Assembly: GCF_029853695.1 (NCBI RefSeq)
Contig: NZ_CP122537.1
Coordinates: forward strand, 1 to 64,000
Direction of reading: 5' to 3'
DNA: 64,000 nucleotides
Origin: Jannaschia sp. GRR-S6-38
GTDB lineage: Bacteria > Pseudomonadota > Alphaproteobacteria > Rhodobacterales > Rhodobacteraceae
In this document: positions 24,169 to 43,294 of the stretch, piece by piece
How positions within the stretch are numbered: position 1 is the first letter of the stretch
Layout of the letters: every line of letters begins with the position of its first letter
Position numbers and translations under genes: made by a program
The notes under the pieces: generated by a model
The model's database searches: none
The model's input: only the letters and a program-made list of their open reading frames with translations
What the model was told of the DNA's origin: nothing

Positions 24169-25359
24169 TCAGATTGCGCGCACGGCCTCCGTCGTCTCCG
24201 CCGACGCAGCGTACAGGATCGGCATCGCGGCGGCGATCAGATCGTCGATTCCGGCGAGGCTCCAGGTTGGATCGACGAGAAAGGCGAGGCTCGTTTCGCC
24301 CAATTCCCGCGCGACCGGCAAAGGCTCCGCCGGCCTGTTCGCGCCGTCGAAGGTCTTTTCGAGATAGATTTCCGAGCAGCTTCCCGAGAATGCCGGAAAC
24401 CCAGCGGCATTGATTTCAGCGACGATCCGGTCGCGGCTCCAGCCGTCGGCGAGCCGCTCGGGGCGGACATAGGTATAGAAGCGGTACCAGGCATGGGTCA
24501 GCCCGGCCCGGGGCATCGGCGTGCGCAGCAGCGGCGATGGCGCGAAGGCGCGGGCGAGCCGCGCGGCGTTGCGCGCCCGGTCGCGATGCCAGTCCGGAAG
24601 CCGGCGCAGCTGGATCCGGCCCAGGGCGGCACAGGTCCCGGGCATCCGGAGATTGGTTCCGGGATGCGCGTGCAGCCAGCGGAACCCCGGCGGATGATCC
24701 TCGGCGAACACCGTCGCGTGGTCCTTGCCGTGGTCCTTGTAGCTCCACGCCCTGCGCCACAGCGCCTCGTCCGAGACCGCCAGCAGGCCCCCTTCCCCGC
24801 CGGTGCTGAGGATCTTGTCCTGGCAGAAGGAGAAGGAGGCGAAATCGCCGAAACTGCCCACGGGCCGGCCGTCGATCATCGCGCCATGCGCCTGCGCGCA
24901 ATCCTCGACGACCCAGAGGCCCCGCGCCCGCGCCAGCGCCATGATCGCGGGCATGTCGCAGGGCCAGCCGCCCAGATGCACGGGGATGATGCCTTTCGTG
25001 CGCGGCGTGATCCGCTCGGCGATCGTCTCGGGCGTGATGTTGCCGCTGTCGCGGTCGATCTCGGCAAAGACAGGGGTCGCGCCGAACAGCAGCACGCAGG
25101 AAGCGGAGGCCACGAAGCTGCGCGGCGTGACGATAACCTCGTCGCCCGGGGACAGGTCCAGCGCCGCGAGGGCCGCGTTGAGCGAGACGCTGCCATTGGC
25201 GAAGGCGATGGCATGCGCCACGCCGAGGTGGTCGGCATATTCGGCCTCGAACGCGTTCACGTCGGGTCCGGTCCAGGCATTCACCTTCCCCGACCTCAGG
25301 ACATCCGCCACCGCGGCGATCTGCTCCTCGTCGAAAACGGGCCAACGTTGTGCGGGCAT
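24169..25359 (-). CDS. DegT/DnrJ/EryC1/StrS sugar aminotransferase
   Basis: This 396-residue PLP enzyme transfers an amino group to a nucleotide-keto-sugar. The PLP-stacking region is FANGSVSLNAALAALDL, with VVEDCAQAHGA (cofactor Asp) and the internal-aldimine Lys in SFCQDKILSTGGEGG. It is the last gene of a minus-strand run with a phosphoglycosyltransferase, formyltransferase and PIG-L deacetylase. It would make the amino sugar that these modify. Confidence 0.92.
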   Translation of the reverse strand: MPAQRWPVFDEEQIAAVADVLRSGKVNAWTGPDVNAFEAEYADHLGVAHAIAFANGSVSLNAALAALDLSPGDEVIVTPRSFVASASCVLLFGATPVFAEIDRDSGNITPETIAERITPRTKGIIPVHLGGWPCDMPAIMALARARGLWVVEDCAQAHGAMIDGRPVGSFGDFASFSFCQDKILSTGGEGGLLAVSDEALWRRAWSYKDHGKDHATVFAEDHPPGFRWLHAHPGTNLRMPGTCAALGRIQLRRLPDWHRDRARNAARLARAFAPSPLLRTPMPRAGLTHAWYRFYTYVRPERLADGWSRDRIVAEINAAGFPAFSGSCSEIYLEKTFDGANRPAEPLPVARELGETSLAFLVDPTWSLAGIDDLIAAAMPILYAASAETTEAVRAI

Positions 25360-25370
25360 GGCGCGCCTCC

Positions 25371-26057
25371 TCAGGCTGCGTGACGGATGAGAACGAAGGC
25401 TTCGCAGGCGGCCCGGTGGACCGTCCCGCCGCGAAGGGTGGCGAGGGCGCGGATCGTCTCGATCGAGCGTTCGTGCGGGGCCGCGCGGACCTGACTTTCG
25501 AACATCGCGAAGGCCTCGAGCTTGCGGTCGATCGTCTGCGTGATGTCGGCGAAGACCTGCGGAAGGAAGCCCGGCGACAGGTAGGGCGCGTTCCAGTTGG
25601 TCTCGGACAGCGTTTCGTAGGCGAGGATCGTGGCGGGGTAATCCGCCTGATGCGGGCGGGCCGCCACGAGCGAGGACAGGAAGATAAGCTGGTGGTCGAG
25701 ATGGATGTCCCCCACATGGGGCACCAGCATCAGCCCGGGCGCGACGTCGCGGACCAGCGCCCCGATCTTGGCGTTGACCTCGCCGTGCGGCACCTCACCC
25801 AGCCGGGCCGCGGGCAGGTCCAGCCAGTGGGTCTCGGTGACTCCCAGATGCGCATGGGCGCGCCGGGCCTCGGCCCGGACGGTTTCGATCAGGCTGTCGG
25901 GAAAGTCGGGCGCCATCCCGCGCGTGACGACCGCCACATGGACCGCGCGCCCCGCATCCGCCAGCCGGGCCATCAGGCCGCCCGCGCCCAGCACCTCGTC
26001 GTCGGGATGTGGCGCGACCACGAGGACCGGGCGATCCGAGGCGAAGAAATCTTGCAT
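25371..26057 (-). CDS. PIG-L/LmbE-type deacetylase
   Basis: This 228-residue zinc-dependent N-deacetylase has the AHPDDE-type motif APHPDDEVLGAGG (residues ~15-27) and the third zinc ligand in GDIHLDHQ. Members remove acetyl groups from N-acetyl sugars. Twelve bases separate it from the formyltransferase and 11 from the DegT gene. Together they suggest that a sugar amine is deacetylated, created or re-acylated within this operon. Confidence 0.9.
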   Translation of the reverse strand: MQDFFASDRPVLVVAPHPDDEVLGAGGLMARLADAGRAVHVAVVTRGMAPDFPDSLIETVRAEARRAHAHLGVTETHWLDLPAARLGEVPHGEVNAKIGALVRDVAPGLMLVPHVGDIHLDHQLIFLSSLVAARPHQADYPATILAYETLSETNWNAPYLSPGFLPQVFADITQTIDRKLEAFAMFESQVRAAPHERSIETIRALATLRGGTVHRAACEAFVLIRHAA

Positions 26058-26069
26058 TGCGTCGAAGTC

Positions 26070-26978
26070 CTAGCTGAATGTCTCGTGCAGTTTCGGGCGC
26101 CAATCCGACGGGGCCCAGGCCCCCACCTTCAGGCAGGCGCCGTCGCCGCACATCACCGAAAACCCGTCCTCGTCGATCGCCTGGACCTGCCCCGGCAGCC
26201 CGATGAAGCGGTGCCCGTCCGGATCGGGGCCGGCCGCGAGCAGCTGGATCGCCTGCGCGTCCGTGCCGGCTGTCGCGAAGGCGCCCGGATAGGGCGGGCC
26301 GACGGCACGAACCAGGCGGTCGATCTCGGCCAGAGGGCGGTGCCAGTCGATGCGGCCATCGGCGGGGCGGCGGCGGGCGCAGATGGTCGCCTGCGCGTGA
26401 TCTTGCGGCTGGCGTGGAACGTCACCCGAGCCGATCCGGTCCAGCAGCGGCGGCAGCATCTTCGTGAGCGCCGCGAGTTGCCGGTCGTAGAGGCTGCGTG
26501 CGGTCTCGGCCGCGGGATCGATGGCGAAGATTTCCTGCGCGGCGATGTCGCCCGTATCGGTACCCGCATCGAGCCAGAAGAGCGAGGCGCCGGCCTGCTG
26601 TTCGCCCAGAAGGATCGTCCAGGGGATCACCGCGCGCCCTCGCAGCCGCGGCAGGGCCGACGGGTGAAACCCGAGGCAGCCCAGCCGGGGGATGTCGCGA
26701 AACTCCGCGCCGCAGATCTGCGACCAGCCGATGACGAGGACGAGATCCGGCGCGAGCGCGCGCAGCCGCGCGAGCGTCTCGGGCCCGTCCGAGCGCTCGG
26801 TCCGGAAAAGCGCGACGCCGGCCGCATCCGCGGGCCCGGCCAGATCGACGAAATCCGAGTGCCGCCGCGACAGCTCGCTCGGCAGCGTGACCAGAAGGTC
26901 CGGGGCGTGATCCGAGGCGACCATGGCGTCGAGGGCGGCGCGCGTGCTGTCCACCGCCCCGACGAGAACCGTCTTCAT
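26070..26978 (-). CDS. Formyltransferase (Fmt/ArnA-like) of the polysaccharide locus
   Basis: This 302-residue protein has the formyltransferase N-terminal domain. It would transfer formyl from N10-formyl-tetrahydrofolate to a sugar amine. Motifs are GFHPSALPRLRGRAVIPWTI and LFWLDAGTDTGDIAAQEIF. The catalytic Asn of the classic Asn-x-His triad reads Gly (GFH), while the His and the Asp (DTGDI) remain; I recall a subfamily with this pattern. The start at 26978 overlaps the preceding stop by four bases. The C-terminal domain ends at LHETFS. Confidence 0.85.
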   Translation of the reverse strand: MKTVLVGAVDSTRAALDAMVASDHAPDLLVTLPSELSRRHSDFVDLAGPADAAGVALFRTERSDGPETLARLRALAPDLVLVIGWSQICGAEFRDIPRLGCLGFHPSALPRLRGRAVIPWTILLGEQQAGASLFWLDAGTDTGDIAAQEIFAIDPAAETARSLYDRQLAALTKMLPPLLDRIGSGDVPRQPQDHAQATICARRRPADGRIDWHRPLAEIDRLVRAVGPPYPGAFATAGTDAQAIQLLAAGPDPDGHRFIGLPGQVQAIDEDGFSVMCGDGACLKVGAWAPSDWRPKLHETFS

Positions 26979-27571
26979 GGCTCGGCCGCCTTCGGCCAGC
27001 GCGAGATGGCCATCGCCTGCTTGAGCCGTGCGGCGTTGCGCCGTTCGCCCTGCAGGATCACGAGGACGGTTTCGAGGAGGATCCGCAGGTCGAGCAAGAA
27101 GCTGCGATGATCGACATACCAGAGGTCGAGCGCGAATTTCTCGTCCTCGCTCAGCTTGGTGTTGCCGCTGATCTGCGCCCAGCCGGTCATGCCCGGGCGG
27201 ACGCGCGAACGGCGCTCGCCGCGCGCCCCGGCCTTCGCGATGGTGTCGGGACGAAGCGGCCGCGGCCCCACCAGCGCCATGTCGCGCCGCAAGATATTCA
27301 GAAGCTGCGGGGTTTCGTCCAGCCGGGTCCGGCGCAGCAGCCGGGTCACCGCGGTCTGCCGCGAATCGTCGGGCAGAAGCTCGCCGCGCGCATCGCGCGC
27401 ATCGGTCATCGAGCGGAACTTCCAGACCCGAAAGGGGCGCCCGCCCTGCCCGGCCCGGGTCTGCGATCCGAGCTGCCACCGGACGACGAGAGCGACCACG
27501 ATCATCGGAAGCGCGCACAGAAGAAATGCGATCCCGATAAGCAGCAACTCGAAAACACGCGGCATCCACAC
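26975..27571 (-). CDS. Small phosphoglycosyltransferase (PglC/WcaJ-catalytic-core type)
   Basis: This 198-residue initiating transferase attaches the first sugar-phosphate to undecaprenyl phosphate at the inner membrane. It has one N-terminal re-entrant hydrophobic segment (residues ~6-32). The core motifs are FRVWKFRSM, LDETPQLLNILRRDM, LVGPRPL and RPGMTGWAQISGN. It lacks the extra five helices of WcaJ-type enzymes, resembling PglC. It is the first gene of the minus-strand sugar-modification operon and reads away from the kinase/lyase fusion gene. Confidence 0.92.
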   Translation of the reverse strand: MWMPRVFELLLIGIAFLLCALPMIVVALVVRWQLGSQTRAGQGGRPFRVWKFRSMTDARDARGELLPDDSRQTAVTRLLRRTRLDETPQLLNILRRDMALVGPRPLRPDTIAKAGARGERRSRVRPGMTGWAQISGNTKLSEDEKFALDLWYVDHRSFLLDLRILLETVLVILQGERRNAARLKQAMAISRWPKAAEP

Positions 27572-27824
27572 CCCCGACAGAAAGACATTGTCGTCCGCAA
27601 CCTCTCCGACAGGACAATACGGTCGCCCTTGGGATCAAGTGTTTTTTCGGTGATCAGTCTGTCCCGCGCGCCATGACGGCGAGAACGTAGATTAGTGGTG
27701 CATTTTGTGTCAGTCCTGAAAAAAGACGCGTCGGCTTTCCACTCGCCGCCTCGGCGGCAATCCCGTCGCGCCACCGATTTTTTGTGTTTTGCGGCTCGAT
27801 CCCGGGCCCGAGTGTGCGAGGTGA
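27572..27824. promoter_or_regulatory. Divergent promoter region of the exopolysaccharide locus
   Basis: This 253-base gap separates the PGT operon (minus) from the kinase/lyase gene (plus). It is clearly AT-richer than its surroundings (AGTGTTTTTTCGGTGATCAG, ATTTTGTGTCAGTCC) and must hold promoters in both directions. I cannot fix -35/-10 pairs with confidence. Confidence 0.5.
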
Positions 27825-30800
27825 ATGGTGAGCAATCTGGATCGGGACTCCGAGGGCGCGGGGCGCGCCCAGCATCGTCATCAACTCCGCGGTTCCTACG
27901 AGGATCACGCGGCGATCGGCCGGGTCGGCCTGTCCGATCTTCCGGGACTGCTGTTGCGCAACGCAACGCGGATCGCCGTGTTCGTCGCCGTCGGAATGGC
28001 GCTCGTCGCCGCCGCGCTCTTCTCGATGGAGAAGCAATACACCGCGACCGCCGTGCTCGTCCTCGAGCCCGGCAGCACAAGCTTCGACACCGTGACCTCG
28101 CGCCTGCGGGCCGTGGATCCGGCCGTCGCGCAGACCGAGGTCGAAGTCCTGCGATCCCGGCGCTTCGCGGAAGCCGTCGCCGAGCAGATGGATCTCTTCA
28201 GCGACCCGACATTCAACGGCGCGCTGGGCGAGCCGTCGTTCTTCGGTCGTTTGGCGAACCTCTTCGGCGGCGACGATCCGGTGGCCCCCGATACCCTGTC
28301 CGCGGCCCCCGAGGGTGACGGTACGGCACCTGTCGAGATGGCCGCCGAAACCGCGCCGGACGCGCCGCAACAGCCGGTGCCGGCCAGCCTGCAGCCACAG
28401 CCCAACGGCGAGGCAAGCGGCGACCTGACGGCCCCGCTCGGCTCCGAGGAGGCGCAGCTCCGGGAAGCCGTGATCGACAAGCTTCTGGCCTCCTACACGG
28501 TGCGCCATGCAGGGCAGAGCCTCGCGATCCATCTCGAGGCGACGCATCCTGACCCCGAGCTCGCGGCCCGCATCGTGAACACGATGGCCGAGCACTACAT
28601 CCGCGAATCCCTGCGCAGCCAGCGCGGCGGCATCGAGGATGCGATCGACTTCCTCGACCGCCGGTCCGACCTGGCGCTGGAGCGTCTGTCGTCGCTGCAG
28701 ACGGAGCTGGTGACGCTGATCCGCCTGAACGCGCTCGACGATGCGGACAAGACCCCGACCATGCTGGCCGAGCTCAACAGCCTCCGCGCGATTTCGGAGC
28801 TGGGCGAGGACGCCGGAAGCCGCGATCTCGCCAGCCGGATCCAGCAGAAGACCGAGGCGCTTCGCGAGCGGACCAACGCGGAGTTGGAGCGCGCGCAGCT
28901 CGAACTGGCCCTGCAGATCGAACGGCAGCGGCTGCAATCCATCTCGGAGCGGCTGAGCGAGTACGAGGCGCAGCGGGACTCGCTGACACCGACGGCGCGG
29001 CTGATCACCTATGCCCAGACGCCGAACGAGCCCACGGCACCGCAAACCAACCTCGCGCTCGCTATCGCCTTCGCCGCGCTTCTCAGCCTGGCCCTCGTGC
29101 TGGCGCTGATCCGCGAGGGTCTCGACACCCGCATCTGGAGCAGCGAGGACGCGGAAGGTGCGACCGGCGTTCCCAATATCGGAGAGCTTCCACTTCTGTC
29201 GAAGCGCGGCCTCGACACCCGCAGCGGCCTTCTGCAGCATCTCGCGCGGACGCCCTATTCCAGCTTCGGCCAGGCGACCCGGGCCCTGATCGCCGCCGCG
29301 CTGGCGCAAGGGACGGGCAAGCACGGCAACGTCGTCATGCTGCTGAGCGCGATGCCGAAAGAGGGCAAGTCGACCCTGGCCGCCGCGGCCGGGATTTGCG
29401 CGGCCCAGGACGGGCTGCGCGTGCTGCTGATCGATCTGGACGTGCAGGATTACGGCGCCAGCCGCATGCTGGGCGCGCGCCGCTCCTCACAGCGTCTGCA
29501 GGATGCGCTCGAGGATCCGGCGGCCTTCGAAGCGGGGATCAGCAAGAATTGCGGCCTCAACGGGCTCGACGTGATCAACTTCAGCCCGGATTCGCATTTC
29601 GGCCGAAAGCTCGGCCAGACCACCGCCAGCGAAGATGCGATCGCCGAGGAACTGCGGGTGGATTACGATCTGATCCTGATCGACACGCCCTCCTACCTCG
29701 CCTCCGACCACGCCAACCGCCTGGTCCGGCTCGTGGACGCGGCCGTGCTGCTGGCGCGCTGGGGTCGCACCAAGGCGGAGAGCCTGCGCGACGCGGCTGC
29801 CCTGTGTCGCCGCAACCGGCTTCCGGTCCTGGGCGTCGCGATCAACGCGGTCGATCCGCGCAAGAAGGAGCGCTTCGCGCGCGGCGGAATGGGGTATCGC
29901 GACATGTCGGATTTGCGCCCGGCCCGCGCCGCGATGCGCGTCTCGGCGGTGCTCCTGGCCAGCCTGGTCGCGGTCAGCCCCGGCGGGGCCCGGGCGGAGG
30001 CGCTCGCGTTCCCCGGCGCCTTCGGGTTCGGCGCGGGCGCGACCGGCTGGCGCGGCGGCGAAATCATTACCGTCCGCAATCTCGACGATTCCGGCCCCGG
30101 AAGCCTGCGCGACTGCGTCGAACGCCGCGGTCCGCGTGTCTGCGTCTTCGCCACCAGCGGGACGATCGATCTCGACAGCGAACTGATGGTCGCGCCGAAT
30201 GTCTACGTGGCCGGGCAGACGGCGCCGGGCGACGGCATCCAGCTTCGACTGCGGGAGGGGTTCCGCTCACCTCTGCTGATCAAGAACACCAACGATGTCG
30301 TCCTGCGCTTCCTCAAGGTCCGGCCGGGCCCCGGAAGCCAGCCCAGCCCAGCTGTCGACGCAGTCACGATTGAGAACGCGCAGCGCGTCTATCTCGACCA
30401 TCTCTCCATGATGTTCGCCTCGGACGAGAACCTTAACATCCATGTCAGCAGCGGGATCAGCGCCGACGTCACGGTGGCGAACAACATCATCGCGTTCGGA
30501 CTTCGCAATTCGAACCACCCGAAGGGCGCGCATTCGAAAGGCGCACTCATCTGCTCCAGCGAGGGCGACGGAAACGAATGCGGCCGGATCACCCTCGCCC
30601 GGAACCTGTTCGCCCATAACCGAGACCGGAACCCGGACCTCAAGGCCACCGATATCGGGCCCATCGAGGTCATCAACAACCTCTTCTACAATTTCGGGAG
30701 CCAGAACGGGGAGGTCTACAACCACCTCGGAAATCTTCGCATCAACTACGCGGGCAACGTCGCGATCGCGGGCCCGAACACGATCCGGCCGCGGCCCGAA

Positions 30801-31298
30801 ATGATCCAGGCCTTCATGCTCGATGCCACGAACGGCCTGCAGATCTTCGAAGAGGACAACTTCACCCGCGAATGCGCGCGCGACAGCCGCCACGACGTCC
30901 TCGACCCCGTCGCGCGGGCCGCCCGCGTTCCGAACCGTGTCGATCCCTTCGTGAGCCCGGTCTTGCCGGCCACCGACCTGCGCGAACACGTGATGGCGAA
31001 TGCGGGCGACCGGATCCCGGGGCGGCGTCCGCCCGATCCGCTCGACGCGCTCGTGCTGACTCATCTCGAGACCTGCGGCGGTCTTCTGATCGACGCGGTC
31101 AAGGAACTTGGCGGCTGGCCGCGCATCGCGACGATGGCGGTTGACGCCGACAGCGACGGCGATGGCCTCCCCGACCCATGGGAGCGGACGCGCCCTTGGC
31201 TGGATCCCGGCGATCCGGGGGATGCCTGGCGCCTGATGCCCGGCACGCGGATCTCGAGCATCGAGGCCTATCTCGCTGAGCTGGCAGGCGATTTCTGA
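27825..31298 (+). CDS. Wzc-like chain-length/tyrosine kinase fused to a pectate-lyase-like domain
   Basis: One uninterrupted 1157-residue frame. Residues ~1-430 form a Wzz-type polysaccharide co-polymerase: helix ~49-67, a periplasmic coiled-coil region, and helix ~410-428. Residues ~440-690 are a BY-kinase domain with Walker A AMPKEGKST (~509), Walker A' LLIDLDVQDYG (~534) and Walker B LILIDTPS (~616). It lacks the usual Tyr-rich tail. After GMGYRD, residues 704-724 form an internal signal-peptide-like helix (MRVSAVLLASLVAVSPGG, then ARA). From 725 a PL1-type right-handed beta-helix follows (SGTIDL, YLDHLSMMFASDEN, NLFAHNRDRNPDL), ending with a DxDxDG motif. No stop codon occurs in any frame around the join. 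Translation from ATG 29904 or 29934 as a separate gene cannot be excluded. Confidence 0.8.
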   Translation: MVSNLDRDSEGAGRAQHRHQLRGSYEDHAAIGRVGLSDLPGLLLRNATRIAVFVAVGMALVAAALFSMEKQYTATAVLVLEPGSTSFDTVTSRLRAVDPAVAQTEVEVLRSRRFAEAVAEQMDLFSDPTFNGALGEPSFFGRLANLFGGDDPVAPDTLSAAPEGDGTAPVEMAAETAPDAPQQPVPASLQPQPNGEASGDLTAPLGSEEAQLREAVIDKLLASYTVRHAGQSLAIHLEATHPDPELAARIVNTMAEHYIRESLRSQRGGIEDAIDFLDRRSDLALERLSSLQTELVTLIRLNALDDADKTPTMLAELNSLRAISELGEDAGSRDLASRIQQKTEALRERTNAELERAQLELALQIERQRLQSISERLSEYEAQRDSLTPTARLITYAQTPNEPTAPQTNLALAIAFAALLSLALVLALIREGLDTRIWSSEDAEGATGVPNIGELPLLSKRGLDTRSGLLQHLARTPYSSFGQATRALIAAALAQGTGKHGNVVMLLSAMPKEGKSTLAAAAGICAAQDGLRVLLIDLDVQDYGASRMLGARRSSQRLQDALEDPAAFEAGISKNCGLNGLDVINFSPDSHFGRKLGQTTASEDAIAEELRVDYDLILIDTPSYLASDHANRLVRLVDAAVLLARWGRTKAESLRDAAALCRRNRLPVLGVAINAVDPRKKERFARGGMGYRDMSDLRPARAAMRVSAVLLASLVAVSPGGARAEALAFPGAFGFGAGATGWRGGEIITVRNLDDSGPGSLRDCVERRGPRVCVFATSGTIDLDSELMVAPNVYVAGQTAPGDGIQLRLREGFRSPLLIKNTNDVVLRFLKVRPGPGSQPSPAVDAVTIENAQRVYLDHLSMMFASDENLNIHVSSGISADVTVANNIIAFGLRNSNHPKGAHSKGALICSSEGDGNECGRITLARNLFAHNRDRNPDLKATDIGPIEVINNLFYNFGSQNGEVYNHLGNLRINYAGNVAIAGPNTIRPRPEMIQAFMLDATNGLQIFEEDNFTRECARDSRHDVLDPVARAARVPNRVDPFVSPVLPATDLREHVMANAGDRIPGRRPPDPLDALVLTHLETCGGLLIDAVKELGGWPRIATMAVDADSDGDGLPDPWERTRPWLDPGDPGDAWRLMPGTRISSIEAYLAELAGDF

Positions 31299-31509
31299 CG
31301 CCAAGCCGTGCCGCGTCACCCCCGGTTTACGAATCAGGCAGAGGCGATTCGAGCCTGCCTCGACGACACTCCCTCCCCGGTTGTGCCGGGCGCTGCCGGC
31401 GGTTCGCCGCATCTAACCTCCGAAACGCGATGCCGACCCAAGACCTAGATCGCGGCGCGCAAACCCTACACAACATCATGGCGCTGTCAGGTGCCGCGGC
31501 GAAGCTTCT

Positions 31510-31537
31510 TTGACCTTTCGAAAAGCTGGCGTAAGCT
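31510..31537 (+). promoter_or_regulatory. Promoter of the FlaA1-type gene
   Basis: TTGACC (31510-31515), a 16-base spacer and TAAGCT (31532-31537) form a reasonable sigma-70 promoter. It would start transcription near 31544, just before the structured leader. The remaining gap from 31299 to here shows no gene. Confidence 0.6.
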
Positions 31538-31548
31538 GCCTGTGTCTG

Positions 31549-31616
31549 CTGGGGGGCAAAGACGTTTCGGTTTCGCAATCTTCGCGAATCCTCGCGCAAT
31601 TCGCGTGGCCCCCCAG
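31549..31616 (+). promoter_or_regulatory. Structured 5' leader with nested inverted repeats
   Basis: An outer 9-base inverted repeat (CTGGGGGGC at 31549-31557, GCCCCCCAG at 31608-31616) encloses an inner 7-bp hairpin (CGCGAAT at 31583-31589, ATTCGCG at 31599-31605). It follows the predicted transcription start and ends 43 bases before the start codon at 31659. It could be a regulatory RNA element or a protein-binding leader; it matches no riboswitch that I recognise. Confidence 0.5.
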
Positions 31617-31658
31617 ATCGACCCTGTGTTTTAAGTGGTTTGCCATTGGGGGCGTGTA

Positions 31659-33821
31659 ATGTTGAGGATTGGGGCAGGCGTATTCCGTCTTAAAGGGACG
31701 GAACGGGACGAAACTCACGAAACGGAAATCGGCGTCGCGGCGCGCCTTCAGGCACATGTCCGGAGGATGCTGGGCGAAGTCCGCTCGCAGAAGCGGCTCT
31801 TCGTATGCGACCAGGCGATCGTCGCCTTCTCCTTCGGCATCGCCGCGCTGCTGCAGATCGGATGGCCCGCGACCGCCGCGGCCGCGTTGCCGATCCTGGG
31901 CTTCGTCCTCTGCGCGATGGTCAGCGCCGCCCTGCTCTTCCCGCCGGCCGGCATGTACCGGCGCCACCTCGGGACCGCGTCGATCCCGGATGTCGCGATC
32001 TCGTTGGCGGCGGTGGTGATGGTCATCGTCGCCGTGGCGATCCTGTCCCTGGTCGGGCTGACCGGGGCCTCGGTGCCGGTGGGCGTGTTCATCGTCGCCG
32101 TCTTCGTCGCCCCGCCGCTCCTTCTGGGCGCGCGGCTTGCGCGGCGGATCAACGACAGCTTCGTCGGCAGCCTTCTGGGCGGCGGGCGCAGCCTGGCGCC
32201 CACCGGGACGCCGATCCTTCTGGTCGGCACGGGAACGGCATGCGACCTGTTCCTCCGCGCGCTGCGCAACGAGGCCGGATCGGCCTATCGCCCGGTCGCG
32301 ATCGTCGACGATGTCCGCGACACGAACGGCCTCTATTTCCACGATGTGCCGATCATCGGCTCGATCCTCGACATCGACCAGATCAAGGACTGGTTCACAA
32401 CGCGCGAGCTTCCGGGACACCTCGTCCTGACCGAGCCGCCGGAGCATTTCGACGACCCGTCGATCCGTGGGCTGATCGCCTGGGCCGAAGACGAGGGGGT
32501 CGACGTTCGCCGCCTGCCCGGCCTGTGCGAGACATACGGGCTGGACCAGCCGCTCGCGACGGTGGAGCTCGATCTCGACGACCTCCTGCCGCGGCCCTGC
32601 CGTTCGAGCGATAGGCAACGGCTCGCTCGCCTGGTCGCCGGTCGCCGCATCGCCGTGACGGGCGCGGGCGGCTCGATCGGCTCGGAACTCGTGCGCCAGG
32701 TCGCGGCGAACGGGCCCGAGAGCCTGCTGCTGATCGACCACTCGGAGTTCAATCTCTACTCGATCGGCCAGGAGCTGGCACGTCTGCACCCGACGGTCGA
32801 GAACCGCTGCGAGATCTGCGACATCCGCGAGCGCACGCGCGTGGATGACCTCTTCGACAGCTACCAGCCCGAGATCGTCCTGCATGCTGCGGCGCTCAAG
32901 CACGTCCCGATCGTCGAGGCCAATCCCTGCGAGGGGGTGCTCACCAATGTCGTCGGCACGCGCAACGTCGCGGATGCCGCGCGGCGGGTCGGGGCCTCAG
33001 CGATGGTCCAGATCTCGACCGACAAGGCGGTGAACGCGACCTCGGTGATGGGCGCGACGAAGCGCATCGCGGAGCTTTATTGCGGGGCGCTCGACCGCGC
33101 GTCCGAAACCGGTTCCACCCGTTTCATGACGGTCCGGTTCGGCAACGTCCTGGGCTCCTCGGGCTCGCTCATCCCGCTCTTCAAGGAGCAGATCGCGAAT
33201 GGTGGCCCGCTGACCGTGACCGACCCGCGCATGGAGCGGTTCTTCATGACGATCCGCGAGGCGGTGGAGCTGACGCTCATGGCCTCCGCACACGGGATCG
33301 AGCGCAAGACCGACCGGGGCGCGATCTTCGTGCTGGATATGGGCGAGCCGGTGAAGATCATCGACCTCGCCGAGCGGATGATCCGTCTGTCCGGGCTGGA
33401 ACCCGGCCGGGATATCGGGATCGAGATCATCGGCTCGCGCCCGGGTGAGAAGCTGTTCGAGGAGCTGTTCGACACGCTCGAGACCCGCGCCCCGAGCGGC
33501 CTGAGCGGCGTCCTGTCGGCGACCTCGGCGGATGTCCCGCTGGACCGGCTCGTGCTGTGGGCCAACCGGCTGGAAGCCTTCGCCCGGCTCAACGACGCGC
33601 CGATGGTCCTGGATACGCTGCACGACGTCGTTCCCGGCTACCGCGAGGCCGCCCAGGAAGCCGCCAACGAGAGCTGGAACCCGCCGGTCAAGCTGGAGCC
33701 CAAGTCGCGTGTCCGCGAGGAGCCGGCCGCGACCGGCCTCAAGGCCCGCTGGACGAAGAACTCCGGCGCGACGGCGGCGGGGCGCGGGGCCGACAGCGTC
33801 ATCATTCTGCCGGGGACATGA
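31659..33821 (+). CDS. Membrane-bound NDP-sugar 4,6-dehydratase (FlaA1/CapD/WbpM type)
   Basis: This 720-residue protein has four or five N-terminal membrane helices (~25-150), a Rossmann-like linker domain (~165-300) and a C-terminal dehydratase/epimerase domain. NAD binding is shown by VTGAGGSIGSELV. The active-site segment is STDKAVNATSVMGATKR, with Met in place of the usual Tyr, as in WbpM-like enzymes. ISTDK and RFGNVLGSSGSLIPLF are family hallmarks. It should convert UDP-GlcNAc to a 4-keto-6-deoxy sugar, precursor for the DegT aminotransferase. I prefer ATG 31659 to the upstream GTG at 31635. Confidence 0.92.
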   Translation: MLRIGAGVFRLKGTERDETHETEIGVAARLQAHVRRMLGEVRSQKRLFVCDQAIVAFSFGIAALLQIGWPATAAAALPILGFVLCAMVSAALLFPPAGMYRRHLGTASIPDVAISLAAVVMVIVAVAILSLVGLTGASVPVGVFIVAVFVAPPLLLGARLARRINDSFVGSLLGGGRSLAPTGTPILLVGTGTACDLFLRALRNEAGSAYRPVAIVDDVRDTNGLYFHDVPIIGSILDIDQIKDWFTTRELPGHLVLTEPPEHFDDPSIRGLIAWAEDEGVDVRRLPGLCETYGLDQPLATVELDLDDLLPRPCRSSDRQRLARLVAGRRIAVTGAGGSIGSELVRQVAANGPESLLLIDHSEFNLYSIGQELARLHPTVENRCEICDIRERTRVDDLFDSYQPEIVLHAAALKHVPIVEANPCEGVLTNVVGTRNVADAARRVGASAMVQISTDKAVNATSVMGATKRIAELYCGALDRASETGSTRFMTVRFGNVLGSSGSLIPLFKEQIANGGPLTVTDPRMERFFMTIREAVELTLMASAHGIERKTDRGAIFVLDMGEPVKIIDLAERMIRLSGLEPGRDIGIEIIGSRPGEKLFEELFDTLETRAPSGLSGVLSATSADVPLDRLVLWANRLEAFARLNDAPMVLDTLHDVVPGYREAAQEAANESWNPPVKLEPKSRVREEPAATGLKARWTKNSGATAAGRGADSVIILPGT

Positions 33822-33828
33822 TCCTGTA

Positions 33829-33862
33829 GGCGGGCCGGCCCGGTCGTCCGGGCCGGCCCGCC
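33829..33862 (+). terminator. GC-rich hairpin after the FlaA1-type gene
   Basis: A perfect 15-bp stem (GGCGGGCCGGCCCGG with its complement) around loop TCGT begins eight bases after the stop codon. It has no T tract. It may be a terminator or an attenuator that sets expression of the downstream glycosyltransferase run. Confidence 0.7.
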
Positions 33863-33933
33863 GCCATACGGACGAACGCGTTTTCGGGCGGCGCCCATCC
33901 CGGAATTGAGCCGGGCCACGGAAGGGAATTGCG

Positions 33934-35124
33934 ATGAAGGTTTTGCATTGTGTCACGAGCACCGGGCTCGGCGGTGCGCAGGTCATGCTCCTGCGATACC
34001 TCGCCGCCCTCGGGGAGCGCGCGCGGGACCACACGGTCGTCTCGCTCATGCCCCGGGGTTCGATCGGCGACGAGATCGCGGCGCTGGGCGTCTCCGTCCT
34101 CTCGGCCGACATGCAGCAGGGATCGTGGTCCCCGATGGCGCTGCTGCGCCTGCGGCGTCTGATCCGCGAGGCGCGGCCGGACCTCATTCACGGCTGGATG
34201 TATCACGGCAATCTCGCCGCCTGGCTCGCCACGCTCGGTCCGGGCAATTGGCCGCCGGTGGTCTGGGCGGTGCATCATTCGCTGCAGGATATCCGCAACG
34301 AGGGCCGGTCGACCCGGCTCGTAATCCGGGCCAGCGCCCGGGCCTCGCGCCGCGTCGCGGGCATTACCTATTGCTCGCGCATCTCGGCCGACCAGCACGA
34401 GGCACAGGGCTTCAGCGCGCAGAACCGCTGCGTCATCCCCAACGGGATCGACACCTCGGAATTCGACATCGACCCCAAGGCCCGTGCCTGGCTGGGTGAC
34501 CTGATCGGCGTCCCGCCCGAGCGGACCATCGTCGGCAATGTCGGACGTGACCATCCGATGAAGGACCAGGGGCGCATGGTCGCGACCGTGGCGAAGATGC
34601 TGGAGGCCGGGCACGACGTGCAGGCGGTCCTCGTCGGCGAGGGGCAGGAGACCGGGCGCGCCCGGGATGCCGCCGTCGAGCTGGGCATCGAAGATCGCGT
34701 CACCTCGCTCGCCCAGCGCCGCGACATTCCGCGCCTCGTCGCTGGGTTCGACATCTTCCTGCTGCCCTCCGCCTGGGGCGAGGCCTTCCCCCTCGCCGTC
34801 TGCGAGGCGATGGCCTCAGGCATCCCGGCGGTCGTCACCGATGTGGGCGACAGCCGCTGGATCGTGGGCGACACCGGCGTGGTCGTGCCGCCTGCCGATA
34901 CCGACGCACAGGTCGAGGGCCTCTCCCGCCTCATGGCGCGCAGCCCCGACGAACGCCGCGCGCTGGGCGCGCGGGCGCGCGAACGGATCTGCGAGAATTT
35001 CTCGATGACCCATTACATCGACGCCCATGACGCCTTCTACCGCACGACGCTGGAGAAGGTGGGCGTGCGTTCGCCGGGCGAAACAGCGCCGACGCCCCGC
35101 CCGTCATCGGATCCGGTGGCGTGA
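33934..35124 (+). CDS. Glycosyltransferase, GT4 family
   Basis: This 396-residue retaining glycosyltransferase has the GT-B fold. The N-terminal domain begins MKVLHCVTSTGLGGAQVMLL. The C-terminal domain has IPNGIDTSEFD, VGNVGRDHPMKDQG and the E-x7-E region GEAFPLAVCEAMASGIPAV. It would add one sugar to the lipid-linked repeat unit on the cytoplasmic side. GGAAGGGA precedes the ATG, and its stop overlaps the next gene. Confidence 0.93.
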   Translation: MKVLHCVTSTGLGGAQVMLLRYLAALGERARDHTVVSLMPRGSIGDEIAALGVSVLSADMQQGSWSPMALLRLRRLIREARPDLIHGWMYHGNLAAWLATLGPGNWPPVVWAVHHSLQDIRNEGRSTRLVIRASARASRRVAGITYCSRISADQHEAQGFSAQNRCVIPNGIDTSEFDIDPKARAWLGDLIGVPPERTIVGNVGRDHPMKDQGRMVATVAKMLEAGHDVQAVLVGEGQETGRARDAAVELGIEDRVTSLAQRRDIPRLVAGFDIFLLPSAWGEAFPLAVCEAMASGIPAVVTDVGDSRWIVGDTGVVVPPADTDAQVEGLSRLMARSPDERRALGARARERICENFSMTHYIDAHDAFYRTTLEKVGVRSPGETAPTPRPSSDPVA

Positions 35125-36302
35125 TGCGATCCGTCGGCGCCCCCCGTCACGTGGTTCTGATCAGCAGCTACGCGCCCAGCCTCGTGACCTTTCGCCTCGA
35201 CCTGATCCGCGCACTTGTCGCGGAAGGCCACAGCGTGACCGCTTTAGCCCCCGAAGCGGATCGCGCTGTGGCCGACACCCTTGCCCGGAACGGCTGCGCC
35301 TTCGAGGTGCTGCCGATGGCGCGCACGGGCACGAATCCCTTCGCGGATATGGTGCTGCTGGCGCGGATGATCCGGTGCCTGCGGCGGCTGAAGCCCGATG
35401 TCGTGCTTCCCTACACGATGAAGCCCGTGATCTACGGCGGGATCGCGGCGCGCCTTCTGGGGGTTCCAGGCCGACACGCGCTGATGACCGGTCTGGGCTA
35501 TGTCTTCTCGGACCCCGATCCGCGGGGCAAGCGGCGCCTGATCCGCGACGCGTCGGTCCGCCTCTACCGTTCGGCGCTGAAGGGCGTGGGCCGCGTCTTC
35601 GTCTATAACGGCGCGGACGAGGCCGATATCCGGCGCTTCGGGATGGTCGCGGACGATGTCCCGCTGATCCGCGTGGCGGGAACCGGCGTCAACCTGGACC
35701 GCTACGCGCAAAGCCCCCTGCCCGACGGCCCGCCGCGCTTCCTCCTGATCGCGCGGCTTCTCTCGGCCAAGGGCGTCCGCGAATTCGTCACTGCCGCCGA
35801 ACGGCTCAAGCCCGACTGGCCCGAGGCGCAGTTCCGCATCCTCGGCGCGCCCGACCCCAATCCCGACGGCATCGGCGCCGAGGAGATCGCCGCCTGGAAG
35901 CGCAGCGGCGTGGTCGACTACCTCGGACGGACGGATGACGTGCGCCCCTTTCTCGACGACGCGTCGGTCTTCGTCCTGCCGTCCTACTACCGCGAAGGCA
36001 TCCCGCGTTCGATCCTCGAGGCGATGGCCAAGGGGCGGCCGGTCATCACCACCGATCTGCCGGGCTGCGGCGACACGGTCGAGGACGGGATCTCGGGCTA
36101 TCTCGTCGCGCCGCGCGACACCGAAGCCCTGACCGCCGCGATGCTGCGCTTCCTGGAGGCCCCCGAGACGATCGCGGCCATGGGCGCCGCCGCACGAACC
36201 CGCGCCGAAGAGGTGTTCGACATCCACAAGGTCAACGACCACCTGCTGACCGAGATGGGCCTGATGCGGCGCGACCGCTCCGTCGCCTCGGAAGCGGCCT
36301 GA
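35121..36302 (+). CDS. Glycosyltransferase, GT4 family
   Basis: This 393-residue GT-B glycosyltransferase is similar to PglA/WbpX-type enzymes. It shows SSYAPSLVTFRLDLIRALVA at the start, the donor-site motif VAGTGVNLDRY, LLIARLLSAKGVREF and the E-x7-E region REGIPRSILEAMAKGRPVI. The four-base overlap (GTGATG) with the previous GT gene suggests translational coupling. Sugar specificity is not readable. Confidence 0.93.
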   Translation: MMRSVGAPRHVVLISSYAPSLVTFRLDLIRALVAEGHSVTALAPEADRAVADTLARNGCAFEVLPMARTGTNPFADMVLLARMIRCLRRLKPDVVLPYTMKPVIYGGIAARLLGVPGRHALMTGLGYVFSDPDPRGKRRLIRDASVRLYRSALKGVGRVFVYNGADEADIRRFGMVADDVPLIRVAGTGVNLDRYAQSPLPDGPPRFLLIARLLSAKGVREFVTAAERLKPDWPEAQFRILGAPDPNPDGIGAEEIAAWKRSGVVDYLGRTDDVRPFLDDASVFVLPSYYREGIPRSILEAMAKGRPVITTDLPGCGDTVEDGISGYLVAPRDTEALTAAMLRFLEAPETIAAMGAAARTRAEEVFDIHKVNDHLLTEMGLMRRDRSVASEAA

Positions 36303-36307
36303 GCGGA

Positions 36308-37645
36308 ATGGCCGTGATCCGCGCGCTCCACAAATTCATCTACTTCGATGAACTGGTGCCGCGCATCTTCCGAAACGTGGCGATCCTGGTGTCCAGCACC
36401 ACCGTCGTCGCGGTCCTCGGCCTGGTCACGCTCGCGCTCACGGCGCGCGCGCTGGGCCCGGCGGGCGTGGGCATCTTGGCACTGGTCGAAGCCTATATCC
36501 GAACCGTCGATCTGCTGACGCGGCTTCAACCGACGCAGGCGCTGATCAAACACGGCGCCGACGCGTTGGAAGCGGGCGATGGCGCGCGCTTCGGCCGGCT
36601 GGTGAAACTCTCCATGCTGATCGATCTCGCCGGCGGGATCGTCGCGGGCTCGATCGCGATCGCGCTGGGCTTCTGGGTCGCGCCGCTGATCGGGCTGGGC
36701 CCGGACGGCTACGACTACATCCTGCTGGTCGCGCTGGCGATGTTCGTGTCCTTCCGCCCGACCGGGATCGCGGTGCTGCGCCTCTTCGACAGGTTCGGCG
36801 TTCTGGCGCTGTCCGACGCGGCCGTCGCGCTGCTGCGCCTGGCCATTGCCGCCACGGCCCTGGCGCTCGACCTCGGCATCTGGGCGTTCATCGCCATGCT
36901 GTTCGTGCATTCCCTTCTCGACGGCCTGGTGGCCTTTGGCTTCGCCGTGCGCGAACTGGTCCGGCGCGGCCATGGCGGCTTCTGGCGGGCGGCGGGACGC
37001 CACGCCTTCGGCGAAAACCCGGGCTTCACGCGTCTGTTGTGGAACTCGAATTTCAACCAGATCCTCCGAAATGCGACCCAGCGGTTCGACGTGCTGGCGC
37101 TCGGCGCGCTGGTCAGCCCCGCGACGGTCGGTCTGTACCAGGTCGCCAAGCGGTCGGGCAAAGCGCTCCTCCGATTGGGACGAACCTTCACGCAGGTCCT
37201 CTTCCCCGAGCTCGCGAAGCTCTGGGGCCGGGGCGACCAGGCCCGCTTCGGCAGGTTGATCCGGCGCGCGACGGGACTGACCTTCGCGCTCAGCATGGCG
37301 CTCTTCGTGCCGCTGGCCTTCGTGGTCCCGTCGCTGGTCGACCTCGCCTTCGGCGCCGAGTTCAGCCCCGCCGTGCCCCTGATCTTCGTGCAAGGCGTCG
37401 CCATTATCCTCAATCTCACCGGGCTGGCCTTCAATCCGGCACTGATGAGCATGGGGCTGGACCGGCAATTGCTGACGATCACCTTCATCGGGGCGGTGGC
37501 CTTCGCGCTTGCCTTCGTGCCCGCCGTCATGGTCGGCTCGGCGCTGGGCGCGATGGTCTGCCATGTCCTTTTCAGCTTGATCTGGTTCATCGGATGCGGC
37601 TGGCTTCTGATGCGGCACGCGGATCGACGGGAGACGACGGGGTGA
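36308..37645 (+). CDS. Wzx-type polysaccharide flippase
   Basis: This 445-residue inner-membrane protein of the MATE/MOP superfamily has about 12 hydrophobic helices. It moves lipid-linked repeat units across the membrane. The N-terminal half begins FRNVAILVSSTTVVAVLGLV and includes the typical ALTARALGPAGVGILALVEA. It lies five bases after the second GT4 gene and overlaps the Wzy-type gene. Assigning it as Wzx relies on helix pattern and context. Confidence 0.9.
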   Translation: MAVIRALHKFIYFDELVPRIFRNVAILVSSTTVVAVLGLVTLALTARALGPAGVGILALVEAYIRTVDLLTRLQPTQALIKHGADALEAGDGARFGRLVKLSMLIDLAGGIVAGSIAIALGFWVAPLIGLGPDGYDYILLVALAMFVSFRPTGIAVLRLFDRFGVLALSDAAVALLRLAIAATALALDLGIWAFIAMLFVHSLLDGLVAFGFAVRELVRRGHGGFWRAAGRHAFGENPGFTRLLWNSNFNQILRNATQRFDVLALGALVSPATVGLYQVAKRSGKALLRLGRTFTQVLFPELAKLWGRGDQARFGRLIRRATGLTFALSMALFVPLAFVVPSLVDLAFGAEFSPAVPLIFVQGVAIILNLTGLAFNPALMSMGLDRQLLTITFIGAVAFALAFVPAVMVGSALGAMVCHVLFSLIWFIGCGWLLMRHADRRETTG

Positions 37646-38877
37646 CGGTCACTAGCTTCGGGGATTACGGCGTCGCGACCGACCGCGAACCGGCTTCCAT
37701 CCGGCTGGAGATGGCGCTGGCCACGGCGACGGTCGCGCTGGCGCCGATGAACTACTTCCGCCTCGAATGGCTCTACTTCACGGCGGCCGACCTGTGCGGA
37801 CTTGCGACGCTGCTCGTGATGCTCGTCAATCGCCGGATCGACCTGCGCTTCTACGGCCCCGCGACGCCGCTATGGCTGATCTCATGCGTGCTGTTCCTCG
37901 GCGGGCTCGTCCTCGGCGCTGTGGTCAATGGCGACCCAATGGCGGGGCTCGTCGTCTTCGTGCAGTACCTGTACTCGCTCCTCGTGATCCCGATCGTCGT
38001 CGCCGGCCGCCGGCTGGACCAGACGCTATTCCTGATCAAGGTCTTCGTGGTCTCGGTCGCGGTCGTGATGCTGCATGGCGCCTATCTCGTGCATCTCGCG
38101 GACAATCCCGACACCCGGCTTCTGTCGCCCAGCGGGCGGCTCCGCTCGCTGATCGAGCGGGAGAACGCCGCCGGAGCCATCGCCGCCATCGCGATCACCT
38201 TCAGCATCTTCCTCTACGTCGAAGGCCGGCTGCGTCTCGGGGCGTTCCTCGCGCTGCTGGGTATCCTGTTCTATGGCGTCCTGCTGACCGGCTCGAACAG
38301 CGCGACGGCGGCCGCGTTCATCGGCGCGGTGCTCTTCTTGCTGTTCAGCGGACGCGTCCGGATCCTTCTCGTGGCTCTGCCGGTCCTCGCCGCCGGCGGT
38401 GCGTTGCTGCTGCGCTTCGGGGAGGATCTCCTGCCGGAGGTCTTCCGTCGCCGCGTCTTCCAGGCCCTGGCGTCCGGCGATATCGAACAGGCCGGCACCT
38501 TCTCGGACCGGTTCCTGCTTCTCAAGGAAGCGCTCGGCATCGCCGACGGCACGGCCTTTCTGGGTCTCGGTGCCGACCAGTATCAGGAGCTCAGCGAATT
38601 CGGCGCGCCGGTCCACAACACCTATCTCCTGGTGCTCTCCGAAGGTGGGATCCTGTCGCTGCTGGGGCTGTTCGGCCTGCTTCTGACGGGGATCTATCTG
38701 GGCGCGCGGATGCTGGCAGACCGGGCCGCGGTCTCGCGCGCGGCGCTGACATTGGCGACGATCATCTTCTTCGCGTTGCTGATCAATGTCTTCGCGCATG
38801 TCTATGCGCGGTTCTGGCATGTCCCGCTCGCACTTGCGCTCAGTCTCAGTCTTCGGCGCGGCGATCAGTTCAGATAG
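37642..38877 (+). CDS. Wzy-type polymerase / O-antigen ligase-like membrane protein
   Basis: This 411-residue protein has about ten membrane helices, with a large periplasmic loop between helices in the second half (RVFQALASGDIEQAGTFSDR) and a HNTYLLVLSEGG motif of the O-antigen ligase/polymerase family. It starts at GTG 37642, whose TGA overlap with the flippase stop mirrors the operon pattern. In a locus with Wzx, Wzc-like and Wza/ExoF-like genes a repeat-unit polymerase is the best guess; a ligase is the alternative. Confidence 0.85.
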   Translation: MTVTSFGDYGVATDREPASIRLEMALATATVALAPMNYFRLEWLYFTAADLCGLATLLVMLVNRRIDLRFYGPATPLWLISCVLFLGGLVLGAVVNGDPMAGLVVFVQYLYSLLVIPIVVAGRRLDQTLFLIKVFVVSVAVVMLHGAYLVHLADNPDTRLLSPSGRLRSLIERENAAGAIAAIAITFSIFLYVEGRLRLGAFLALLGILFYGVLLTGSNSATAAAFIGAVLFLLFSGRVRILLVALPVLAAGGALLLRFGEDLLPEVFRRRVFQALASGDIEQAGTFSDRFLLLKEALGIADGTAFLGLGADQYQELSEFGAPVHNTYLLVLSEGGILSLLGLFGLLLTGIYLGARMLADRAAVSRAALTLATIIFFALLINVFAHVYARFWHVPLALALSLSLRRGDQFR

Positions 38878-41132: not shown

Positions 41133-42405
41133 ATGCAACAAGCCGTCAGAGAGGCGACATCGGAGGCGGCCGCCGCCATCCGGCCCGGCGCGACGCGGCC
41201 GATCCGCATCCTGTTCCCCTTCATCGACGGCCCCTCGATGGGCGGCAGCCACATCTCCGCGCTCAAGCTCGTCGCGTCGCTCGACGCGGATCGTTTCACA
41301 CCGATCATCGTCCTGCACGACCTCGACGGTACCGGGCCGGGTGCCATCGCCCGGCACATCGCGGAGCTGGGCCTGCGCTACGAGACCATCAAGGATCTGC
41401 CCATCATGGCGCCCACCGCGCGCCGGATCGCGAACACGGCGTCGCCGCTGATCTTCCTGACCCGGACCCTGCCGCGAATGCGGCGGATCCTGAAGGAGAA
41501 GGCCATCGATATCGTCCACACGAATGACGGGCGGATGCATGTGAACTGGGGCATCGCCGCACGCATCGCGGGCTGCCGGCTTCTCTGGCACCATCGCGAA
41601 GACCCACGAAGCCGCGGGGGTGAACACGCTCGGGCCGTTCCTGGCCGACCGGATCGCCACCGTTTCGCAATTCGCGCGCCCCGCACGACCGCTGCTGCCG
41701 GTCGCGAAGCGCACGCATGTGATCCACAGCCCGTTCGAATTCCCGCCGAGCCCGGACAGGGACGCGGCGCGGGCGGAGCTACTCGACGAGATCGGTGCGG
41801 GCGAGGCCCCGCTGCTGCTCGGCTATTTCGGCGCGCTCGTGCCGCGAAAACGCCCGCTCGACTTCGTGCGCGCCGTGGCGGCGACCGCGAAGGCGCTGCC
41901 CGACCGCGATGTCCGGGGGCTGCTGTTCGGCCTGGCGATCCTCCCGAACAAGCCGCTGGACCACGACGCCAAGGCGCTTGCCGAGGATCTCGGGATCGGC
42001 GACCAGATCCACCTGATGGGCTTTCGCAATCCGATCGCGGGCCCGATGGCGGCCATGGACACGATGCTGGTGCCGGCCGAGAACGAACCCTTCGGGCGCA
42101 CCCTGATCGAGACGATGCATCTTGGCACGCCGGTCATCGCGACCCGCCACGGCGGCAATATCGAGGCGATCGAGGATGGCGTCACCGGCCGGCTCGTTCC
42201 GCTCGGCGACCCGGAGGCCATGGCCGGCGCCGTGATCCAGCTCGAACGCGACCCGGACCTGCGCGCCCGCATCGTGGCCGCCGCCCGATCCGGGCTGGAG
42301 GAGCGCTACGGGACGGCCCGCCATGTCCGGCTGATCAGTGCGCTCTACGAAGACCTCGTTCCCGCCCACCGGCGCCGCGGAGACCTGCGCCCCGCCCTGG
42401 CCTGA
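41133..42405 (+). pseudogene. Glycosyltransferase, GT4 family, interrupted by a one-base frameshift
   Basis: The first part (41133-~41605; PIRILFPFIDGPSMGGSHIS, DIVHTNDGRMHVNWG, LLWHHREDP) is an ordinary GT4 N-terminal domain. The second (from ~41608; GVNTLGPFLADRIATVSQFA, LGYFGALVPRKRPLDF, ENEPFGRTLIETMHLGTPVI) completes it in another frame. Removing one base from GACCCACGAAGCC at 41601-41613 gives a continuous HHREDPEAAGVNT. The start ATG directly follows the export gene's stop. Both halves are well conserved, so a recent mutation or a sequence error is likely. If real, the sugar it adds would be missing. Confidence 0.87.
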
Positions 42406-42463: not shown

Positions 42464-43294
42464 TTGGATCGCCCCGACATAGACTTCCTGATCATCGGCG
42501 CCGCGAAATGCTCGACCACCTGGCTTCACGCCTCGCTCCAGCAATCTCCGAACGTCTTCATGGCCGACGGGGAGCCGCATTTCTTCTCGCGATATTACGA
42601 CCGCGGCTTCGACTGGTACGCGGAGCAATTCCCGGAGAAGCGCTCGGGCCTGCTCTTCGGCGAGAAGTCGAACTCCTACATGTCGGAGCCGGAGGCCGCC
42701 CGGCGCATCCATGACGCCTATCCGCAGGCCCGGCTCGTCGCGCTCCTGCGCAATCCGACGGCACGGGCCTATTCCGACTACTGCATGCTCTACCGGCGCG
42801 GGACCGTCGGGGCCGAGATCGACGACTATCTCGACCCCGACCGCGCCGAATTCCGGCGTTTCATCGATGACGGGCTCTACGCGCGGCAGCTCGCGCGCTT
42901 CCTCGAGCTCTTCCCGCGCGAACAGCTCCTGATCCTCATCTTCGAGGAATTCCGCCGCGACCCCCAGCCCGGCCTCGACCGCCTCGCGCGGCACCTGGGC
43001 CAGCCGGACGGGAGCTTCGCGCCGTTCGAGGGCAAGGTGAAGGACCGCGCGGCCGCGATGGTGCCCCGCCCGATCCGGGCCGCGCTCAAGCCGCTGCGGC
43101 CGATCCTCGACCCGATCCGGGCCACCGGGCCGATCAAGGCACTTCGCGGCCTCGTCGCGCGGCAAGTCAGCTACCCGCCGTTCAAGCCCGAGCTCGCGCG
43201 GCGCCTCGACGCCTATTACGCCGCCGACATCCGGGATCTCGAAGCGCTTTGCGGGCGGCGGATCGACGGCTGGCACGATGCCGCCACCGTCTGA
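42464..43294 (+). CDS. Sulfotransferase (heparan-sulfotransferase-like)
   Basis: This 276-residue PAPS-dependent sulfotransferase has a 5'-phosphosulfate loop IIGAAKCSTTWLHASL and a 3'-phosphate motif LVALLRNPTARAYSDY. The intervening EPHFFSRYYDRG is typical of carbohydrate sulfotransferases. It starts at TTG 42464, seven bases after GGAG; no ATG fits. It lies between the frameshifted GT4 and the metallophosphoesterase and supports a sulfated polysaccharide. Confidence 0.88.
   Translation: MDRPDIDFLIIGAAKCSTTWLHASLQQSPNVFMADGEPHFFSRYYDRGFDWYAEQFPEKRSGLLFGEKSNSYMSEPEAARRIHDAYPQARLVALLRNPTARAYSDYCMLYRRGTVGAEIDDYLDPDRAEFRRFIDDGLYARQLARFLELFPREQLLILIFEEFRRDPQPGLDRLARHLGQPDGSFAPFEGKVKDRAAAMVPRPIRAALKPLRPILDPIRATGPIKALRGLVARQVSYPPFKPELARRLDAYYAADIRDLEALCGRRIDGWHDAATV

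Follow-up and report, generated by a model that had tools for sequence, protein, structure and literature searches.

How do a Wzc-like polysaccharide co-polymerase and a secreted pectate-lyase-like enzyme come to be encoded as one protein? The question is raised by an open reading frame (ORF) of Jannaschia sp. GRR-S6-38, located in a Wzx/Wzy-type exopolysaccharide cluster of this alphaproteobacterium. The window analysed here (the whole stretch of 64,000 bases, 64 kb) is the first part of a single contig of 3,320,675 bases (NZ_CP122537.1). An earlier note, made from the letters of this DNA, had described the ORF as joining a Wzz/bacterial tyrosine kinase (BY-kinase) protein to a PL1-type lyase domain. 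The ORF and its parts are the following.

27825..31298, plus strand: fused ORF of 1157 amino acids, with a co-polymerase/BY-kinase-like part and a lyase part (open-frame scan, Pfam)
27825..29903, plus strand: Wzz/PCP-2a and BY-kinase-like part, residues 1-693 (Pfam, alignment, phmmer)
29862..29903, plus strand: eroded kinase tail, residues 680-693, with the single tyrosine Y691, where relatives have the kinase tail and stop
29904..29906, plus strand: ATG of M694 ('MSD'); the lyase that Ruegeria sp. B32 encodes separately also begins with MSD; candidate ancestral or internal start
29934..29996, plus strand: signal-peptide-like segment M704-A724, a short hydrophobic core VSAVLLASLVAVS followed by PGGARA (hydropathy)
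29997..31295, plus strand: PL1-type (Pectate_lyase_4) lyase part (Pfam, phmmer, alignment)

The open frame is real, and the kinase-like part is in frame with the lyase. No stop interrupts the 1157 codons of 27825-31298, and both the frame scan and Pfam confirm the single frame that the earlier note had read from the Wzz/BY-kinase protein through the PL1-type domain. The Pfam domains, all above the Pfam cut-offs, are Wzz (residues 36-121), AAA_31/CbiA (about 513-682) and Pectate_lyase_4 (818-973). Across 29880-29960 no stop codon occurs in any plus frame, as had been claimed; the claim holds in a stronger form, since the first stops of the other two plus frames lie only at 30184 and 30371. The fused frame has the highest third-position G+C content across the join (0.87-1.0, for scanning windows centred at 29826-30006); further on, one scanning window (centre 30096) is tied between the fused frame and another frame.

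The genomes of relatives indicate how this frame arose. The lyase is rare: matches were obtained in 8 of 394 genomes of the family (two of these matches weak and partial), 1 of 20 genus genomes, 24 of the 390 genomes in the order sample and 12 of the 385 in the class sample, in overlapping sets that all include the genome studied here. Thirty lyase loci were checked for a kinase gene on the same strand, which was found in 21 and was absent from the fetched stretch in nine. Removal of three repeated loci (L046, equal to L181; L047, equal to L183; and L170, equal to L174) left 18 distinct pairs. They come from the genomes G366, G125, G116, G598, G555, G462, G461 (Palleronia sp. THAF1), G456, G696, G620, G591, G703, G592, G691 (one of two loci) and G630, and from the records of Ruegeria B32, Labrenzia THAF187b and Leisingera S132.

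None of these 18 neighbouring loci is fused. In every pair the kinase gene ends at a stop of its own, the lyase being out of phase with it (+1 in 16 pairs, +2 in Ruegeria and Leisingera), and in every pair an in-frame candidate start of the lyase precedes the kinase stop. In the annotated records the overlap is of 4 bases (Ruegeria), 8 bases (Palleronia THAF1) or 11 bases (Labrenzia), and Leisingera instead has a 14-base gap. In several relatives the candidate ATG of the lyase is inside the codons of the Tyr-rich kinase tail, in the other phase, and to judge from its codons one stretch may there serve both as kinase tail and as lyase start. At loci L040, L041 and L042, among others, TAT (Tyr) followed by G gives an ATG in the +1 phase.

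The earlier note had asked whether the fusion recurs in other genomes, and in the sets searched no recurrence was seen. No fused ORF was present among 203 other fetched loci (205 minus L001 and L032, the two copies from this genome itself); of the 205, 49 contain a kinase ORF as well as a lyase ORF, and some loci repeat others. The match tables of 100 relatives, 394 family and 20 genus genomes, 14 genomes of the genus of G125, 390 order and 385 class genomes, each set except that of the G125 genus including the present genome, presented no fusion besides its own. Long frames in these tables were checked in part; those of kinases in G010 and G456 proved not to be fused to a lyase. Genome G544 (L226 and L227) has distant lyases of 35% identity on the N-terminal side of frames of 1971 and 1338 codons; these frames, which have long C-terminal extensions, contain no kinase. 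A search of genome contigs with the whole protein gave no match, and among the best 80 of at least 572 matches of a contig search with the lyase alignment none was fused. Some distant lyases have long N-terminal extensions, without a kinase match among the matches listed. A literature search of partial coverage returned no title on the fusion or on the kinase/lyase gene pair. Since the relatives are two-gene and out of phase, and the fusion was seen in one genome only, the fusion is, as judged by this comparison, a derived, single event on one branch and not a recurrent architecture.

The same two proteins are found in a near-identical cluster in Ruegeria sp. B32, whose lyase is the best plasmid-record match (54% over 92% of the query). 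The Ruegeria pair, WP_170442410.1 and WP_260066581.1, shows 51% (kinase) and 59-60% (lyase) identity to the fused protein; it differs in consisting of two genes, with the short overlap and the kinase stop described above, annotated as an AAA family ATPase and a hypothetical protein. The lyase bears this latter annotation in all four annotated records inspected. In a tree of 29 rows (the lyase of the window, 18 paired, seven unpaired and three distant lyases, with L188 and L192 omitted), the window lyase is sister to that of Ruegeria with support of 99/97, and several deeper forks are weakly supported.

At the join, homology to the Ruegeria kinase stops at 29861. From there to the signal-like segment, Y691 is the only tyrosine and the plus frames are free of stops; from M694 the window reads MSD, like the beginning of the separate Ruegeria lyase. 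Hydropathy peaks in the 1157-residue protein at 50-68 and 411-429, with a weaker peak within about 700-724, ending ARA; an extra peak at 518-536 falls within the P-loop domain. The short core at the join (residues 706-718, then PGGARA) has a hydropathy of about 1.5-1.6, against 2.5 and 2.9 for the two transmembrane helices, and an AxA site, judged by eye, ends the segment. Because of this weaker core and AxA end, a cleaved signal fits better than an anchor. The earlier suggestion of an internal export signal, which would carry the lyase to the periplasm and might end in a signal peptidase site, is supported as a prediction by hydropathy and the AxA site.

Then, with moderate confidence, we propose that the ORF derives from a two-gene pair by in-frame merger and is translated as a single chain that signal peptidase probably splits after ARA-724. 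The ancestral state would have been a tight, mostly overlapping, out-of-phase pair of a Wzz/BY-kinase-like co-polymerase and a secreted PL1-like lyase. A phase change near the join and the loss of the kinase stop, in either order, would have let the kinase read into the lyase, and the ribosome would now produce one chain. The kinase would be held in the cytoplasm by helices 1 and 2, and the signal peptide of the lyase would serve as the internal export signal; signal peptidase I would cleave after ARA-724, so that the lyase is released to the periplasm and a short hydrophobic tail stays on the kinase. The products would be near those of the two-gene relatives, but with synthesis forced to 1:1. 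The lyase would probably trim or clear polymer in the periplasm or the matrix, and the kinase part, lacking a Tyr tail, would probably be a non-canonical (structural) co-polymerase. More tentatively, the ORF may encode a bacterial polyprotein in which cleavage by signal peptidase is the one event separating the co-polymerase from its trimming lyase, which would tie the release of the lyase 1:1 to the insertion of the co-polymerase; a bolder suggestion is that the lyase remains anchored to the co-polymerase ring.

Both halves of the chain keep active-site motifs. In the kinase part, the Wzz domain (PF02706) scores 27.9 bits against a cut-off of 25.5, and the transmembrane peaks are those at 50-68 and 411-429. 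The Walker A (E513-G-K-S516), A' (D537/D539) and B (D620) residues are invariant in all 14 aligned kinases, the fused one included. The likeness to Wzc (PDB 7nhr and others; phmmer 1.9e-13, residues 215-687) extends to the Wzz domain, the two transmembrane helices and the P-loop kinase domain; unlike Wzc, the fused protein has no Tyr-rich tail, and its C-terminus continues into the lyase. The best NCBIfam match of this part is the exopolysaccharide transport family TIGR01005, with 124.4 bits, below the cut-off of 411.7. An Ala/Pro-rich insertion occupies residues 145-207 of the periplasmic part (window about 28257-28445); in Ruegeria it is shorter, and most of the other aligned kinases largely lack it.

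The Tyr-rich C-terminal tail of a Wzc-type BY-kinase is not present in the fused protein, in which the 20 residues N674-D693 include one tyrosine; the kinase part is therefore termed only BY-kinase-like or non-canonical. Tails of the 18 relatives contain 0-8 tyrosines, with zero in four; L169, L171, L172 and L190 are lyase-adjoining kinases/co-polymerases with no tail tyrosine. The earlier note was right that the tail is missing here, but this is no evidence for the fusion, as the closest unfused relative is also without it. That the fusion caused the loss of the tail was considered and rejected, since the Ruegeria kinase, though unfused, is tailless too and ends NAVGKR. According to PMC11986026, the Wzc octamer cycles through phosphorylation of its Tyr-rich tail; co-polymerase partners without such a tail also exist and are thought to work through contact, as PMC12004946 describes. 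By analogy, the kinase part may still serve as a co-polymerase, though not as a canonical BY-kinase. The same paper presents EcpK and HfsB, non-canonical BY pseudokinases that likewise miss the Tyr tail and are proposed to act by contact without phosphorylating; they differ in standing alone and in having no catalytic motifs, which the fused protein keeps. Other genes of this type were observed in the genomes compared. The present genome has a second Wzz/BY-kinase-like gene (G000:C1:265601-267019, minus strand), with 30% identity over the match and few tyrosines at its end. In Labrenzia another annotated tyrosine autokinase is located just upstream of the lyase-adjoining kinase; Leisingera has, at a greater distance upstream, an AAA family ATPase that is likewise a match to the kinase.

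In the lyase part, PF00544 scores 27.5 bits in the whole protein against a cut-off of 24, and 29.9 with the lyase part alone. The 35-row lyase alignment has 31 invariant columns, and Arg 935 of the fusion (R232 of P0002) is among them, being invariant in all 35 lyases, this one included. R232 aligns to chain position 220 of 9buj, the PL1_2 lyase PfPL1, which matches the lyase part with a phmmer value of 1.9e-22; Arg220, in the numbering of the recombinant chain, is catalytic in PfPL1 according to PMC11229556. The catalytic arginine of PL1 is thus found through the alignment of R232, and the second arginine (235) of that paper was not placeable. For the parallel beta-helix fold of the family, the observation is a match in sequence to a lyase whose beta-helix structure is solved. 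The best NCBIfam match of this part is PelZ (NF041900), with 130.6 bits, far below the cut-off of 840. VexL (6fi2, PL1_13; phmmer 1.3e-11 to the lyase part), which is a separate protein, depolymerises Vi antigen, and its source, Achromobacter denitrificans, is a Vi producer (PMC9597891). The analogy with VexL suggests that the lyase of the fusion acts on the polymer of its own species.

Some points weigh against the proposed merger. The fusion was found in one genome only, and the cleavage of an internal signal peptide behind a cytoplasmic domain is a step that we infer from sequence features. In addition, a glycosyltransferase of the same cluster, at 41133 to about 42405 on the plus strand, switches frame near 41600, some 12 kb away, and local decay or an assembly error at this locus is possible. 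The genes around the ORF are the following.

24169..27571, minus strand: DegT aminotransferase, PIG-L deacetylase, formyltransferase and sugar transferase (54-74% identity to Ruegeria B32)
31635..38877, plus strand: epimerase/dehydratase, two glycosyltransferases, flippase and O-antigen ligase-like protein (58-73% identity, in Ruegeria B32 order)

Ruegeria B32 has, in the same order, the kinase, the lyase, the epimerase (66%), the glycosyltransferases (63% and 73%), the flippase (66%), the ligase (58%) and a sulfotransferase (61%, cut); upstream, PIG-L (70%), the formyltransferase (55%) and the sugar transferase (54%) also keep their order. As exceptions, DegT (74%) is elsewhere in the Ruegeria cluster and a pyruvyl transferase is without a match. 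A second Ruegeria sulfotransferase matches window 42476-43282.

An error of base calling or assembly, or a recent mutation in a locus under decay, would mean that there are two genes now, or were until very recently, and that the fused frame is meaningless. This explanation agrees with the two-gene state of all 18 relative pairs and with the frame-broken glycosyltransferase, whose N half matches Glyco_transf_4 (below the cut-off) and whose C half matches Glycos_transf_1 in a different frame, possibly as a broken gene or an assembly indel. Crude frame-change scans over 464 kb of the genome flagged six different places, two of them shared by both scans. The first scan, which missed the glycosyltransferase break, found 4 of 183 junctions that change frame without a stop; the second found 2 of 189 or 4 of 235 according to the gap limit, the wider limit including the glycosyltransferase. 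Six flags in 464 kb are few, however, and flagged places need not be errors: the assembly is not riddled with breaks. Moreover, because no other frame has a stop before 30184, a lone frame error cannot yield a kinase that ends at the join, and a further change is required; a sequencing frame error as the full explanation is weakened accordingly. The other cluster genes with Ruegeria matches also align as single pieces, and we consider error or decay a doubtful account of the locus.

It is unlikely, in turn, that the lyase is made mainly by ribosomes that start inside the frame, at ATG 29904 (probably the ancestral start) or ATG 29934, with the read-through chain as a minor product. The M694-S-D start shared with the Ruegeria lyase argues for it, as does a stretch rich in G (GGAATGGGG, 29886-29894), whose end is 9 bases before ATG 29904; in addition, most of the gene pairs in the relatives overlap, and translational coupling within them is probable. 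As a ribosome-binding-like site this stretch is weak, however, and coupling by termination and restart has been lost here, since no stop closes the kinase frame; no promoter-like site was found on the plus strand over 27500-31700 by a simple consensus scan. That the chain stays whole, with the lyase tethered at the periplasmic mouth of the co-polymerase to trim the polymer during assembly, is permitted by the predicted topology and in keeping with two proteins encoded together in 18 distinct loci, but is quite improbable given the AxA site behind a short hydrophobic core at the join, the separate lyase with its own signal-like N-terminus in the relatives and a fusion found only once.

A precedent for the merger that we favour is FbcH, the cytochrome b/c1 polyprotein of Bradyrhizobium, in which a fused membrane protein and exported protein are parted at an internal signal peptide. 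The proteins are unrelated to those of the fused ORF, and the likeness applies only if the cleavage predicted here is right; the literature search gave no paper describing FbcH.

According to the earlier note, the fusion would be refuted if close relatives had the two genes apart, with a stop codon around the position of the join. Such relatives were found throughout the 18 pairs; the open frame of this genome stands, but the fusion is thereby marked as derived. It had also tied polymer assembly and trimming to one translation product: the functional link is upheld by the neighbouring position of the genes in 18 loci, but the fusion as a design feature is not, since it was seen in one genome only. 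The fusion is probably a chance event whose product still functions; of more general interest is the two-gene pair from which it derives. Exopolysaccharide clusters of Rhodobacterales, and a Labrenzia plasmid, carry the genes of a Wzc-like co-polymerase and a PL1-like lyase as a conserved pair, in most cases overlapping, which suggests that polymer assembly and trimming are coupled. The fused strain is a natural test of whether a co-polymerase can still function when it has no Tyr tail and its C-terminus is changed.

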